The translations under genes and the position numbers were made by a program. From Bacteroidales bacterium (lineage in GTDB: Bacteria; Bacteroidota; Bacteroidia; Bacteroidales; JAIPAH01): a stretch of 47,010 nt of DNA. Below are positions 34,775 through 39,131 of the stretch, in pieces. The notes below the pieces were generated by a model that was not told where the DNA came from, made no database searches, and saw nothing but the letters and a program-made list of their open reading frames with translations. Every line of letters starts with the position of its first letter. Position 1 is the stretch's first letter. The stretch spans positions 1 through 47,010 of the forward strand of contig JAIPBX010000014.1 of assembly GCA_021738485.1 (NCBI GenBank), in the 5' to 3' direction.

Positions 34775-35569
34775 TTAATGGGACAAAAAACTGGTAGCAT
34801 CCTGATACATCTCTTTAGCCTGTTCCTTGTATTTCGAATCAGGATAGCGATTCATTAATTTATCGTAGGCCTCCAGAGCACTTTGATACCTTTCCATCTG
34901 TTTGGAAGCTATACTGTTTTTTGCATAAATGTATTTAGCTTTCAGTATTTTAAACAGCGCCTCTTCCCTATATTTTGTAGCGGGATATTTTTCCAGCAGG
35001 TTTTCATAAGCTACAACAGCGGCCTCATATTTCTCCATATCAAAATACAATTCTGCTTTTTTGTATGCCTTTTTTTCCAGCTTACCCCGCAATTCGTCAA
35101 TCAGTTTATTGACTCTATCTACACGATCACTTTCAGGATATTGATTGGCAAACGCCTGGAGTTGTTTTATGGCCTCCCTGGTTTTCGTCTGGTCTAAACT
35201 GTAGCGGGGCGATTCAAGGTATTTGCAGTAAGCAGCCATAAATTGGGTCTCTTCAGCGCGATCGGTATTGGGGAATTTCTCCGCATATTTTTGAAAATAG
35301 TAGCTGGCCATGACGTAATCTTCCTGGTTGTAATAGCTGTAAGCATAGTAGTAAAACAAATCTTCAGCCTCTTCTTTACCTCTGTATATAGGTATCACCT
35401 GATCAAATAGCTGCAAAGCCCTGTAATAATCTCCTTTTTCATAAAGATCTACGGCTTTTTCATATTTTTTTTCATAATTGTCGCTTTTAAGCAGCTTTTG
35501 GTAATCACTACACCCAAATAAAAGGGCGGTGCTTAACAGAATTGAAATAATTGTCCATTTACGAATCAT
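34775..35569 (-). CDS. bamD: Outer membrane protein assembly factor BamD
   Basis: 264 residues, lipoprotein of the BAM complex that inserts outer-membrane beta-barrels. Signal with lipobox Cys20 (ISILLSTALLFGCSDYQKLL). Five TPR-like repeats follow (YEKAVDLYEKGDYYRALQLF, YSYYNQEDYVMASYYFQKYA, EKFPNTDRAEETQFMAAYC and similar). Start ATG at 35567-35569 is fixed by the signal peptide. It is the first gene of the minus-strand cluster. Confidence 0.93.
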   Translation of the reverse strand: MIRKWTIISILLSTALLFGCSDYQKLLKSDNYEKKYEKAVDLYEKGDYYRALQLFDQVIPIYRGKEEAEDLFYYYAYSYYNQEDYVMASYYFQKYAEKFPNTDRAEETQFMAAYCKYLESPRYSLDQTKTREAIKQLQAFANQYPESDRVDRVNKLIDELRGKLEKKAYKKAELYFDMEKYEAAVVAYENLLEKYPATKYREEALFKILKAKYIYAKNSIASKQMERYQSALEAYDKLMNRYPDSKYKEQAKEMYQDATSFLSH

Positions 35570-35832: not shown

Positions 35833-37434
35833 ATGGAACTAAGTTATAGGGGAAGAGGCGTATTTTTAATAATAATTTTTGTTTTTATTAGTATAACGTC
35901 TTTTGCGGATTCACCTGATGACAGGGAAGTTTTACGAACCATTCGTAAAGGAAATATTACCAAACTACAGTCTTTTATCAGCAACGGGCTTGATGTCAAT
36001 AAAATCTATGACGACCGTACGCTGTTAAATTATGCTATACGCAAAGATGAGTATGCGATTTGTAAGGAGCTGGTTAAAGCAGGGGCTGACATAAACCGTT
36101 TCCATGATGACCGGAGCCCCCTCATTCAAGCCGTTCGAACCCATAATTTCGAAATCCTTGAATGGCTCATTGGCAAAGGAGCTAAGCTGGACCTGGCTGA
36201 TTCCAATGGGAACACCGCACTAACCTATGCGGTGCAAAGAGAAAAACTCGATATGGTTAAACTTTTGTTTGAATCGGGGAGTAGCTCCGCGAAAAAAAAT
36301 AACCGGGGTAAAACCCCTTTCGAGTATGTAAATCGTTACCACGAGAATCCCGTCCTAGAATATATCAACAAGATAAAGGTGCTGAAACATCATATGGATA
36401 CGCTTCCTGATATGGTAGACGGCCCTCATGTTCAGCTTAAAGAAGATTATGCCAAAGTAACTTATTTCCTGCATGATAGCTCCCGTAACAAGACATGGAA
36501 AAGGTATAACCATTACCCTTTAAAAGAGAAGACGCTTACTTTTGAGGGATTTGCCGGAGATACAAATACATATCATCTCGATCTGGATTTTAAGGAAGAA
36601 CCGCCCTTACTTTCCGGAGTAGAAAAAATGTTTCTGATTGGAGATGTGCATGGAGAGATTGAAACAGTGCTGGAGTTATTAAAAAGCCAGCAAATCATAA
36701 AATCGTCAGGTGAATGGAATTTTGGCGAAGGACATCTTATATTTAACGGTGATGTTTTTGATAGAGGCACGAAGGTTACTGAGACATTATGGCTGATTCA
36801 TCGCCTTAAACGACAGGCAATAAAGAATGGGGGAGATGTGCATCTTCTTTTGGGCAATCACGAAATTATGGCCCTGACGGGTGATTACTCTTATTTGGCT
36901 CCCAAGTATCTTTACTTCTCCCAATTCTTTTTTAAGAAATACAAGGACTGGTACAACAGGAAAAGCTATATGGGGCAGTGGCTCCACCATAGGAATGTTA
37001 CCATGAAAATTGATGACAAGTTACTGGTTCATGCCGGTTTTTCCCCCAGGGTTCTCAATCAAAAGTTATCTTTAAAAGAAATAAATGATATTTTTCAGCT
37101 CCACATGAGAGGAAAAAGATACCGGGTCGAATATATTCATAAGTTGGTTGTATCTGGCGACGGGCCATTGTGGTACAGAGGCTATGCTGCGAATAACCGG
37201 ACCTATACAGAAGTGGAGGCGACTTTGGTTAACAAAACCCTGGATTTTTATTCGGCTTCCAGGCTTATCGTGGGACATATGCCTCATTATACTATCAAAA
37301 GTATGTATGATAGCAAGGTATACTTGATTGATGTGCCTGTGGGGAAAGAAGGTTATCTTGCCCAGGGTCTGCTCATAGATGGGCAGCAGTTTTATAAATG
37401 TTCTAAAAATGGCCGATGCATTAAAATAGAATAG
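35833..37434 (+). CDS. Exported ankyrin-repeat metallophosphatase fusion
   Basis: 533 residues. Signal peptide at about 1-25 (VFLIIIFVFISITSFAD). Residues 30-170 carry about four ankyrin repeats (NGLDVNKIYDDRTLLNYAIR, AGADINRFHDDRSPLIQAVR, KGAKLDLADSNGNTALTYAV). After a linker, residues 264-500 are a calcineurin-like phosphoesterase: D271/H273 (IGDVHGE), D307 (NGDVFDRG), N342/H343 (LLGNHE), a HAGFSP motif and VGHMPHYT supply all metal ligands. The layout (GDVHG, then a long spacer, then GNHEIMALTGDY) resembles the Shewanella-like PPP phosphatases, which hydrolyse phosphoproteins. The protein is predicted to work in the periplasm. The next gene starts 18 bases downstream and probably shares the transcript. 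Confidence 0.85.
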   Translation: MELSYRGRGVFLIIIFVFISITSFADSPDDREVLRTIRKGNITKLQSFISNGLDVNKIYDDRTLLNYAIRKDEYAICKELVKAGADINRFHDDRSPLIQAVRTHNFEILEWLIGKGAKLDLADSNGNTALTYAVQREKLDMVKLLFESGSSSAKKNNRGKTPFEYVNRYHENPVLEYINKIKVLKHHMDTLPDMVDGPHVQLKEDYAKVTYFLHDSSRNKTWKRYNHYPLKEKTLTFEGFAGDTNTYHLDLDFKEEPPLLSGVEKMFLIGDVHGEIETVLELLKSQQIIKSSGEWNFGEGHLIFNGDVFDRGTKVTETLWLIHRLKRQAIKNGGDVHLLLGNHEIMALTGDYSYLAPKYLYFSQFFFKKYKDWYNRKSYMGQWLHHRNVTMKIDDKLLVHAGFSPRVLNQKLSLKEINDIFQLHMRGKRYRVEYIHKLVVSGDGPLWYRGYAANNRTYTEVEATLVNKTLDFYSASRLIVGHMPHYTIKSMYDSKVYLIDVPVGKEGYLAQGLLIDGQQFYKCSKNGRCIKIE

Positions 37435-37452
37435 AAATAAACCGCATAAACT

Positions 37453-38487
37453 ATGTTAAAATCTCATCACTTTGTTCTCCTGCTATTAGCTCTGGCAATA
37501 GGATGGCCGGCTATTGTCTTCGCTCAAAAACAGCAACAGGTTTCGCTTTTTCAGAACAACAGTATATTAACGTTTAAAATGAAGAGTAATTACAGAAAAC
37601 TACTCAAAGATGTCGGTGAAGACACAAAAGATTATAGAAGCAAAATTATTTATACCGATAGTCAGGGGGAAAAAAAGAAGATTAATCTCGACCTTGAGAC
37701 TAGAGGGAATTTTCGCAGCAAACCCGGCAACTGTGATTTTCCACCATTGGAGCTGGAATTCAAAGACTTTTCTGAAACAGCCCAATCACTTTTTGAGGGT
37801 CAGGGAGAACTCAAGCTGGTTACCCATTGCCAGCAGGAAAAACCCGCTTATGAGCAACATGTTTACAAGGAATACCTGATTTATCGCCTCTACAATCTGC
37901 TTACCCCAAAGAGTTTTAAGGTGCGCTTATGCCAGGTTAATTATAAGCAAACCTGGTCTTTTAAAAAAAATGTAAAACCGGCTTTCTTAATCGAAGATAA
38001 TGCTAAATTGGCTGAGAGATTTCACGGAGAGGAAATGGACAACGACGACGATTACATGCCTTTAGATACCACCCAACTGGCTTTAATGGCCTTTTTTGAA
38101 TATATGATTGGAAATACGGATTGGTCTATTGAACCTTTACAGAATGTGGAAATCATAAAAACTTCTTCAGATGATCGTTTCCCCGTCCCTTATGATTTTG
38201 ATTTGTCGGCATTTGTCAACACCCCATATGCTCCGCAAGCTATGTTTAAGGATAGTCTCGGGTTTCTGAAAAGAGAATACAAAGGTCCTGCTTTCAGGAA
38301 GCCTTTTATTGATAAAACATTTGAAGTGATGAACAGCAAAAAGCAGGATATCTTATTATACATCCGGGAATCGTTTTTTTTGAAAGAGGAAGAAAAGCAT
38401 AGATTAACGGAATTTATACGGGAGTTTTACCGGGAAATCAACAATGGCAAGGAAAATCCACCCTGGGAAATTACTTCGACTTCTTAG
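37453..38487 (+). CDS. Exported protein with CotH-kinase-like features
   Basis: 344 residues with a signal peptide (VLLLLALAIGWPAIVFAQ). Mature sequence contains DLETRGNFRSKPGNCDFPPL (RGNxR-type motif), GELKLVTHCQ, a helix HVYKEYLIYRLYNLLTPKSF, then AFFEYMIGNTDWSI and VPYDFDLSAFVN. The order (RGN, conserved Lys, YR-LYN helix, GNTDW, YDFD) recalls the CotH family of atypical protein kinases, where N/D-W and DxD residues bind ATP and metal, but I cannot be sure from eye. Co-directional with, and 18 bases after, the metallophosphatase gene. If the resemblance holds, the two genes form an extracytoplasmic phosphatase/kinase pair. Confidence 0.65.
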   Translation: MLKSHHFVLLLLALAIGWPAIVFAQKQQQVSLFQNNSILTFKMKSNYRKLLKDVGEDTKDYRSKIIYTDSQGEKKKINLDLETRGNFRSKPGNCDFPPLELEFKDFSETAQSLFEGQGELKLVTHCQQEKPAYEQHVYKEYLIYRLYNLLTPKSFKVRLCQVNYKQTWSFKKNVKPAFLIEDNAKLAERFHGEEMDNDDDYMPLDTTQLALMAFFEYMIGNTDWSIEPLQNVEIIKTSSDDRFPVPYDFDLSAFVNTPYAPQAMFKDSLGFLKREYKGPAFRKPFIDKTFEVMNSKKQDILLYIRESFFLKEEEKHRLTEFIREFYREINNGKENPPWEITSTS

Positions 38488-38516: not shown

Positions 38517-39131
38517 TCAGTTATAATACAGATTTTCGTTAAGCTGAAGGGCTTTCTTATTGACTTCCCGGAGAATTTTAATTTTATTCTTCAAAAAGAT
38601 TCGTCTTTTCTCGGGCTCTTCAAGACTGACAAAGCGAATCTTTTCATCTTCGGTTAAGGGAAGGAACTTAACGATATTCCAGATATTCGTCATTTTGCTT
38701 GTGTTTTTAAAAGGTTTGAATTTTGCCTTCAACTCGTCAAAATAACTTTGAAATTCCTTAAGGAGATCTTCACAGCTTTTTGCGTAACCATCATCCAGCC
38801 ATTCGACCAGACCCGAATCGTAAAGGCGGTTGCCGTGATAGGGGAGGTATCTATTAAGCTTAAAAGTTTTGCAGCCTTCAACAATAATATCCATTTCCCC
38901 CGTTTCCGGGTTATATGAAGTGGTTTTGATGATTTTTACATAGCATCCATATTTATACAAATGATCGGCTTTGGTGAAAGGAATGCCGAAATACCAGTCC
39001 GCATCTCTGATGTCACGCATCAATTGTTGATAGCGGGGTTCAAAAACATGAAGTTTTTGCTTCTCCCCGGGTAAAATCGTGATGCTCAATGGAAATATGG
39101 GTATTATATCATGTTTCAATTTACGTCGCAA
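38517..39131 (-). CDS. LON substrate-binding (N-terminal) domain protein
   Basis: 204 residues. Begins MRRKLKHDIIPIFPLSITIL, then PGEKQKLHVFEPRYQQLMRD and FGIPFTK, the standard opening of the Lon N-terminal domain. Helical C-terminus (FVSLEEPEKRRIFLKNKIK). There is no ATPase or protease domain, so it is one of the stand-alone LON-domain proteins of unknown function, perhaps a protein-binding adaptor. It converges with the CotH-like gene. Confidence 0.88.
   Translation of the reverse strand: MRRKLKHDIIPIFPLSITILPGEKQKLHVFEPRYQQLMRDIRDADWYFGIPFTKADHLYKYGCYVKIIKTTSYNPETGEMDIIVEGCKTFKLNRYLPYHGNRLYDSGLVEWLDDGYAKSCEDLLKEFQSYFDELKAKFKPFKNTSKMTNIWNIVKFLPLTEDEKIRFVSLEEPEKRRIFLKNKIKILREVNKKALQLNENLYYN

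Follow-up and report, generated by a model that had tools for sequence, protein, structure and literature searches.

Recurrent linkage of an exported ankyrin-repeat phosphatase gene and a gene for an exported CotH-fold kinase-like protein in a Bacteroidales genome and its relatives

In the stretch of Bacteroidales bacterium DNA analysed here (47,010 nucleotides, NCBI GenBank assembly GCA_021738485.1, contig JAIPBX010000014.1, positions 1 to 47,010; hereafter the window), two forward-strand genes separated by a spacer of 18 bases (37435-37452) encode a predicted exported protein with ankyrin repeats and a metallophosphatase domain, termed A, and a predicted exported protein with a CotH-type kinase fold, termed B. 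A and B may be the two halves of an extracytoplasmic phosphorylation/dephosphorylation system, a reading for and against which we judge the case to be about evenly poised. According to this reading, B would be exported, most likely to the periplasm, and would there act as a CotH-type kinase, probably on proteins; A, exported and probably made from the same transcription unit, would remove the phosphate through its di-metal phosphatase domain, and its ankyrin repeats would probably serve to bind either B or the phosphorylated target, or else a scaffold holding both. The two open reading frames (ORFs), their spacing and the RGNFR, GNTDW and YDFD motifs of B, on which an original prediction of an exported kinase-phosphatase unit had been built, are all present where that prediction had placed them (Table 1). 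Both the motifs and the pairing exceed chance: the motif columns vary little or not at all within the B family, and the pairing recurs in relatives.

The assignment of B to a fold comes from its AlphaFold2 model, which has a predicted local distance difference test score (pLDDT) of 83.5 and a predicted template modelling score (pTM) of 0.83. When this model was searched with Foldseek, the sole PDB matches under E 0.001 were the two entries of the spore-coat kinase CotH, 5jda (E 1.1e-9) and 5jd9. With VIA, the model aligns to 5jd9 over 262 residues at Z 19.3, with a root-mean-square deviation of 2.9 and 14% identity, and the next rows are CtkA, HipT and PI4K II, at Z 12.9 and lower. Fam20-type secretory-pathway kinases, which act outside the cytosol, have a kinase-like fold in common with B and yet are clearly farther from it than CotH is (Z 11.3 for hydra Fam20, 5xoo). 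The predicted structure of B thus has the CotH kinase fold, as had been proposed from its motifs, and the outcome that would have counted against that proposal, a protein without a kinase fold, was not obtained.

By sequence, B lies below the detection level of the CotH family (PF08757). Searched alone, it matches no Pfam family (a chance Flavi_NS2A match only, E 0.31), no NCBIfam family and no PDB entry; it has no match to Pfam CotH up to E 1, and the three CotH matches of its own genome do not include it. A 17-row profile of B relatives likewise yielded only a chance match in the PDB (E 1.8). These 17 relatives, among them the window's B and another copy from its own genome, came from the 10 of 59 related genomes that matched, and in their alignment R84, G85, R88, C94, K121, C126, E140, D223, N231, D248 and other residues are invariant. 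A wider set was then drawn from named genomes, from which 80 of 566 confirmed loci were taken and which, with the first 17 loci, gave 106 unique B proteins. Identical in 106/106 of them are R84, G85, R88, C94, K121, C126, E140, Y144, E181, R189, F215, D223, N231, D248 and Y259, while D250 is kept in 105; conservation around D223 is partly selected in this wider set, the scan having been seeded with a motif that contains it, but D223, N231 and D248 are also invariant across the first 17 members, for which no motif seed was used. Among 69 B members, CotH was by far the commonest Pfam family at E up to 1 (19 members, best 1.7e-8). The family's cut-off of 23.8 bits was passed by five members (L051, 34.8; L055, 34.5; L094, 30.3; L067, 27.1; L101, 24.4; L numbers denote loci) out of ten that had been picked mainly by their score to a CotH profile. 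No match was found when plasmid sequences were searched with B by tblastn.

B and CotH have in common not only the fold but also the order of catalytic Asp, Asn and metal-binding Asp. Substitution of D228 or D251 inactivates CotH, according to PMC7821199, and these residues probably correspond to D223 and D248 of B, as judged by motif and spacing only. The N-lobe is where the two diverge. The B family is set apart from CotH by an N-terminal hydrophobic segment and two invariant cysteines. One of these, C94, occupies the position that, by spacing, a nearly invariant lysine takes in the aligned CotH domains (R3-G4 to K13 in the CotH alignment), and the invariant lysine of B, K121, lies away from that spacing. 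The usual Lys-Glu pair may be replaced in B by K121 and E140. This departure in the N-lobe would fit a kinase fold with some other activity, such as transfer of adenosine monophosphate, binding only, or a pseudokinase scaffold; we see only a slim chance of this, the full identity of D223, N231 and D248 among the 106 proteins being unusual for a pseudokinase. As a separate observation, the invariant C94 and C126 might be joined by a disulphide if the compartment is oxidising.

The phosphatase partner, A, matches Ank_2 (E 7.7e-21; 74.9 bits against a cut-off of 27.3, which it passes) and Metallophos (E 9.5e-12) in Pfam, and its phosphatase part matches the Shewanella cold-active protein-tyrosine phosphatase in the PDB (2z72, 1v73 and 2zbm) at E 5e-53 to 1.4e-52, the 2z72 match (E 5e-53) covering residues 262-513. 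The next PPP phosphatase follows only at 7e-5, so that the label of a Shewanella-type phosphatase, given to A at the outset, is borne out. An AlphaFold2 model computed from a 15-row alignment (pLDDT 90, pTM 0.85) has 2z72 as its top Foldseek match (E 3.1e-27, template modelling score by target 0.87, 28% identity), followed by ankyrin-repeat proteins. A has the di-metal pattern, consisting of the D and H of GDxHG, the D of GDxxDRG, the N of GNHE and two later histidines, and the residues concerned, D271, H273, D307, N342, H400 and H482, which are candidate metal ligands, are invariant in all 15 alignment rows. A thus resembles the Shewanella enzyme in sequence, overall fold and metal-ligand motifs; it differs from that 342-residue chain, which has no ankyrin part, in its N-terminal repeats and in its link to a kinase-like gene. 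Y354 of A, also invariant in 15/15 rows, aligns with Tyr161 of the Shewanella enzyme. Tyr161 was once credited with specificity for phosphotyrosine, a credit that PMC5454105 reports and disputes, and the conservation of Y354 is therefore no proof of the substrate of A.

At the N terminus of each protein is a hydrophobic stretch ending in a site that reads as a signal-peptidase-I site, and neither has a lipobox cysteine. Most of the B family has such a stretch: by a crude hydrophobicity test, an N-terminal hydrophobic segment is present in 91/108 B proteins, several of the misses being ORFs called too long, against 194/527 of the other genes of at least 200 amino acids at the same loci. The periplasm, rather than the cell surface, is the most likely location of B.

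We next turn to the linkage of the two genes, whose absence from relatives would have spoken against the original prediction. Linkage does recur. Neighbours were scanned at 97 B loci (the 17 of the first set and the 80 of the wider set; genes under 120 amino acids were dropped, and the scans excluded L026, L016 and 23 redundant loci), and at 17 of the 97 an A homologue adjoins B, which amounts to 16 places as the same one counts for both L012 and L016. The 18 adjacent A-B pairs all lie on the same strand, with gaps of -35 to 105 and in both gene orders; one A may stand between two B genes (L012/L016 and L045) or before three or four of them (L081 and L098). Metallophos was found in 15 of the 131 genes immediately beside B and in no more than 2 of 131 control genes (p 0.0009 against 2), this upper bound being derived from the 25 commonest families among the controls. 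The immediate neighbours were 131 of 135 (four very long ones were dropped for size), and the controls, situated two or three places away, were 131 of 168, drawn at random after genes of more than 800 amino acids had been dropped.

Co-occurrence across genomes points the same way. Of 59 relatives, 10 have B and 7 have A, and B is present in every one of the A-bearing genomes (Fisher p 3.5e-7). Among 393 genomes of the order, 53 have A and 58 have B, and 41 have both, where 7.8 would be expected; in this set a B gene lies within 2.5 kb of 32 of the 63 A genes, in 32 genomes and 13 families, with 28 of these linked pairs on the same strand and four convergent, all four in one family. Linkage varies with the form of A. 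ORFs of at least 470 amino acids, the size that accommodates the ankyrin part, are linked to B in 25 of 39 cases, as against 7 of 24 for short A (p 0.01), and they occur in B-bearing genomes in 37 of 39 cases, as against 13 of 24 (Fisher p 0.0002). The repeats themselves were checked in 39 A genes (7 from a class set, 7 from the 59 relatives and 25 from the order set): 27 carry them, all in ORFs of at least 486 amino acids, and the 12 without are ORFs of at most 429 amino acids, except L138 (861 amino acids), which has another architecture and lies outside the order set. In a quickly built tree of 86 B proteins (the 23 redundant loci left out), the label "A-linked" requires at least 10 changes, two of them forced by well-supported branches. 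Linkage to A is thus spread over the B family; as the tree does not separate gains from losses, it does not decide for or against a single ancient A-B operon. An invariable pairing of B with a phosphatase was also considered and is ruled out by the 55 of 91 B genes of the order set that have no A nearby. The window's own genome also has an unpaired B gene, its second (G000:C156:6226-7230, L159), which has no phosphatase beside it and lies head to head with the gene of an exported 1860-amino-acid lipoprotein, presumably an alpha-2-macroglobulin; a gene of 1858 amino acids occupies the same place at L062.

Several points weigh against a two-part phosphorylation system. Firstly, the periplasm is not known to hold a pool of adenosine triphosphate (ATP), which makes the donor a difficulty, and neither B nor any close relative has a known activity. 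Secondly, the family-level comparison of B with CotH is weak: profile-profile alignment against 16 CotH domains gave an E of 0.063 for the 17-row B alignment, which is not significant (the control against the phosphatase alignment gave 0.43), and a P of 0.006 with a probability of 6.2% for the 69-row alignment. The latter nevertheless pairs GNTDWS...N...YDFD of B with the CotH catalytic stretch, and single B members give the same pairing together with the preceding helix; the assignment of B to CotH is taken from the fold and from the single members that pass Pfam, not from the profile-profile scores. Thirdly, the association is loose in places. In the order set, 31 of the 63 A genes are unlinked and 12 of the 53 A-bearing genomes have no B, in addition to the unpaired B genes counted above; among 395 genomes of the class, A is present in 8, B in 20 and both in only 2, although adjacent in both (Fisher p 0.057). 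The co-occurrence p-values moreover take no account of shared ancestry, and there is overlap between the three genome sets.

This looseness is what would be seen if B were an active kinase that A does not reverse, A being a broad, co-expressed phosphatase or acting at another step of the pathway, and both the unlinked A genes and B genes of the order set and the six of eight A-bearing class genomes without B fit such an arrangement. We nonetheless hold it to be improbable, as the short gaps and the occurrence of both gene orders recur across 13 families and as it is the ankyrin form of A in particular that accompanies B. The proposal of a periplasmic phosphorylation switch, with which the original prediction had ended, thus fares unevenly: the predicted folds and the recurrent linkage agree with it, but the word "switch" overreaches, many B genes occurring without A and Shewanella-type phosphatases without B, and its suggestion that the ankyrin repeats select substrates stays a conjecture.

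A further question concerns what such a pair would act on. After Metallophos, the commonest Pfam families in this set of 131 adjoining genes include ankyrin (12), PycTM (11), Phosphodiest (6), DUF4956 (5), Sulfatase (4) and VTC (3). At some loci B stands beside a VTC polyphosphate polymerase gene (PF09359), a DUF4956 gene (PF16316) or both, and at L028 the gene order is VTC, DUF4956, B, A. A module of CotH, polyphosphate polymerase and DUF4956 adjoins pel genes according to PMC7112168, and for such a module phosphate metabolism is discussed in a later paper on Streptococcus intermedius (PMC12345266). In some relatives B occupies the place of CotH in the pel-side module, from which the window's locus differs in that VTC and DUF4956 were not detected in its genome (78% complete) and in that no phosphatase partner is mentioned in the text of PMC7112168 that we saw. 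These modules, the VTC and DUF4956 neighbours and the PafA alkaline phosphatase found next to B four times among the 131 neighbours all raise the alternative that the pair serves phosphate metabolism or a non-protein substrate (a glycan, a lipid or polyphosphate) outside the cytoplasm, and not regulatory protein phosphorylation. We consider this alternative unlikely, though far from negligible. The failure to detect VTC and DUF4956 in the window's genome speaks against it, as does the fact that VTC is no commoner with B, being present in 5 of 10 B-bearing relatives and 22 of 49 others; beside B and among the control genes it is equally frequent (three each). The excess of Phosphodiest (alkaline-phosphatase-like) neighbours, 6/131 against an upper bound of 2/131 in the controls, is not significant (p 0.14), and the characterised protein closest to A goes under the description of a protein-tyrosine phosphatase. 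As a general setting for B, the polyphosphate module is ruled out on the same two observations, the failure to detect it in the window's genome and the lack of VTC enrichment; it may be the setting for a subset of loci. For completeness we record one bolder proposal, very probably wrong as it stands, in which B would represent a large family, as yet without a name, of exported kinases that occur in Bacteroidota and Gemmatimonadota and are not restricted to ATP. Where VTC and DUF4956 adjoin B, polyphosphate that they make and move outward could then be the donor in a compartment lacking ATP, with the ankyrin-phosphatase as eraser.

Other neighbours of B were noted in passing. Genes of the alkaline-phosphatase superfamily (PafA type, and one PF00245) lie beside B at L067, L069, L071, L080 and L018. 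The PycTM genes (Pycsar effector, PF18967) stand beside B in both orientations, at L009 (1639-2844), L031 (2518-3720), L032 (6968-7582), L046 (6983-7618), L067, L075, L077, L099 and L101, and the L009 protein also has a weak match to an HD domain. In Pontibacter and Hymenobacter (for example L033, L065 and L095), a gene for an exported member of the sulfatase/metalloenzyme superfamily precedes B, an arrangement conserved at 17 loci (cluster C3).

In the window, the pair is flanked by a divergent gene upstream of A (34775-35569), named from its sequence as a BamD-like lipoprotein gene, and by a convergent gene that lies 29 bases past B (38517-39131) and encodes a LON substrate-binding-domain protein (Pfam E 1.1e-15). 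A LON substrate-binding-domain gene is also convergent to the pair at L024 and L028, where the gene order is B, A and not A, B as in the window. The features of the two genes are collected in Table 1.

Table 1. Positions in the window of genes A and B and of their predicted parts
Feature	Positions	Strand	Evidence
ORF A, predicted exported ankyrin-repeat protein with Shewanella-type metallophosphatase domain, 533 amino acids	35833..37434	+	ORF call, Pfam, PDB 2z72, AlphaFold2, Foldseek
Predicted signal peptide of A, residues 1-25 (...SITSFA/DS, slash at the putative cleavage site)	35833..35907	+	sequence reading
Ankyrin-repeat region of A, about residues 30-186	35920..36390	+	Ank_2 E 7.7e-21; helix pairs in model
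Phosphatase domain of A, residues 258-533; motifs GDVHG, GDVFDRG, GNHE, GPLWYRGY	36604..37431	+	PDB match; candidate ligands invariant
ORF B, predicted exported CotH-fold kinase-like protein, 344 amino acids	37453..38487	+	ORF call, AlphaFold2, Foldseek, VIA
Predicted signal peptide of B, residues 1-24 (...AIVFA/QK, slash at the putative cleavage site)	37453..37524	+	sequence reading
RGNFR motif of B, residues 84-88; R84, G85, R88 invariant (106/106)	37702..37716	+	
Putative catalytic loop of B, GNTDW to N231; D223 presumed catalytic Asp	38110..38145	+	conservation; alignment with CotH NWDG...NN
GNTDW motif of B, residues 220-224	38110-38124	+	
YDFD motif of B, residues 247-250, presumed metal-binding Asp	38191..38202	+	D248 106/106, D250 105/106; aligns with CotH PYDxD

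In the literature collection that was searched, no publication on the A-B pair was found. Little is known of the reversible phosphorylation of proteins beyond the bacterial cytoplasm, and how a phosphate donor would be supplied there is an open question. The B family brings to this question a set of exported kinase-like proteins that occur in many species with strictly conserved catalytic residues and have no Pfam name, and its recurrent phosphatase partner, equipped with a binding module, would make extracytoplasmic phosphorylation testable with two purified proteins.

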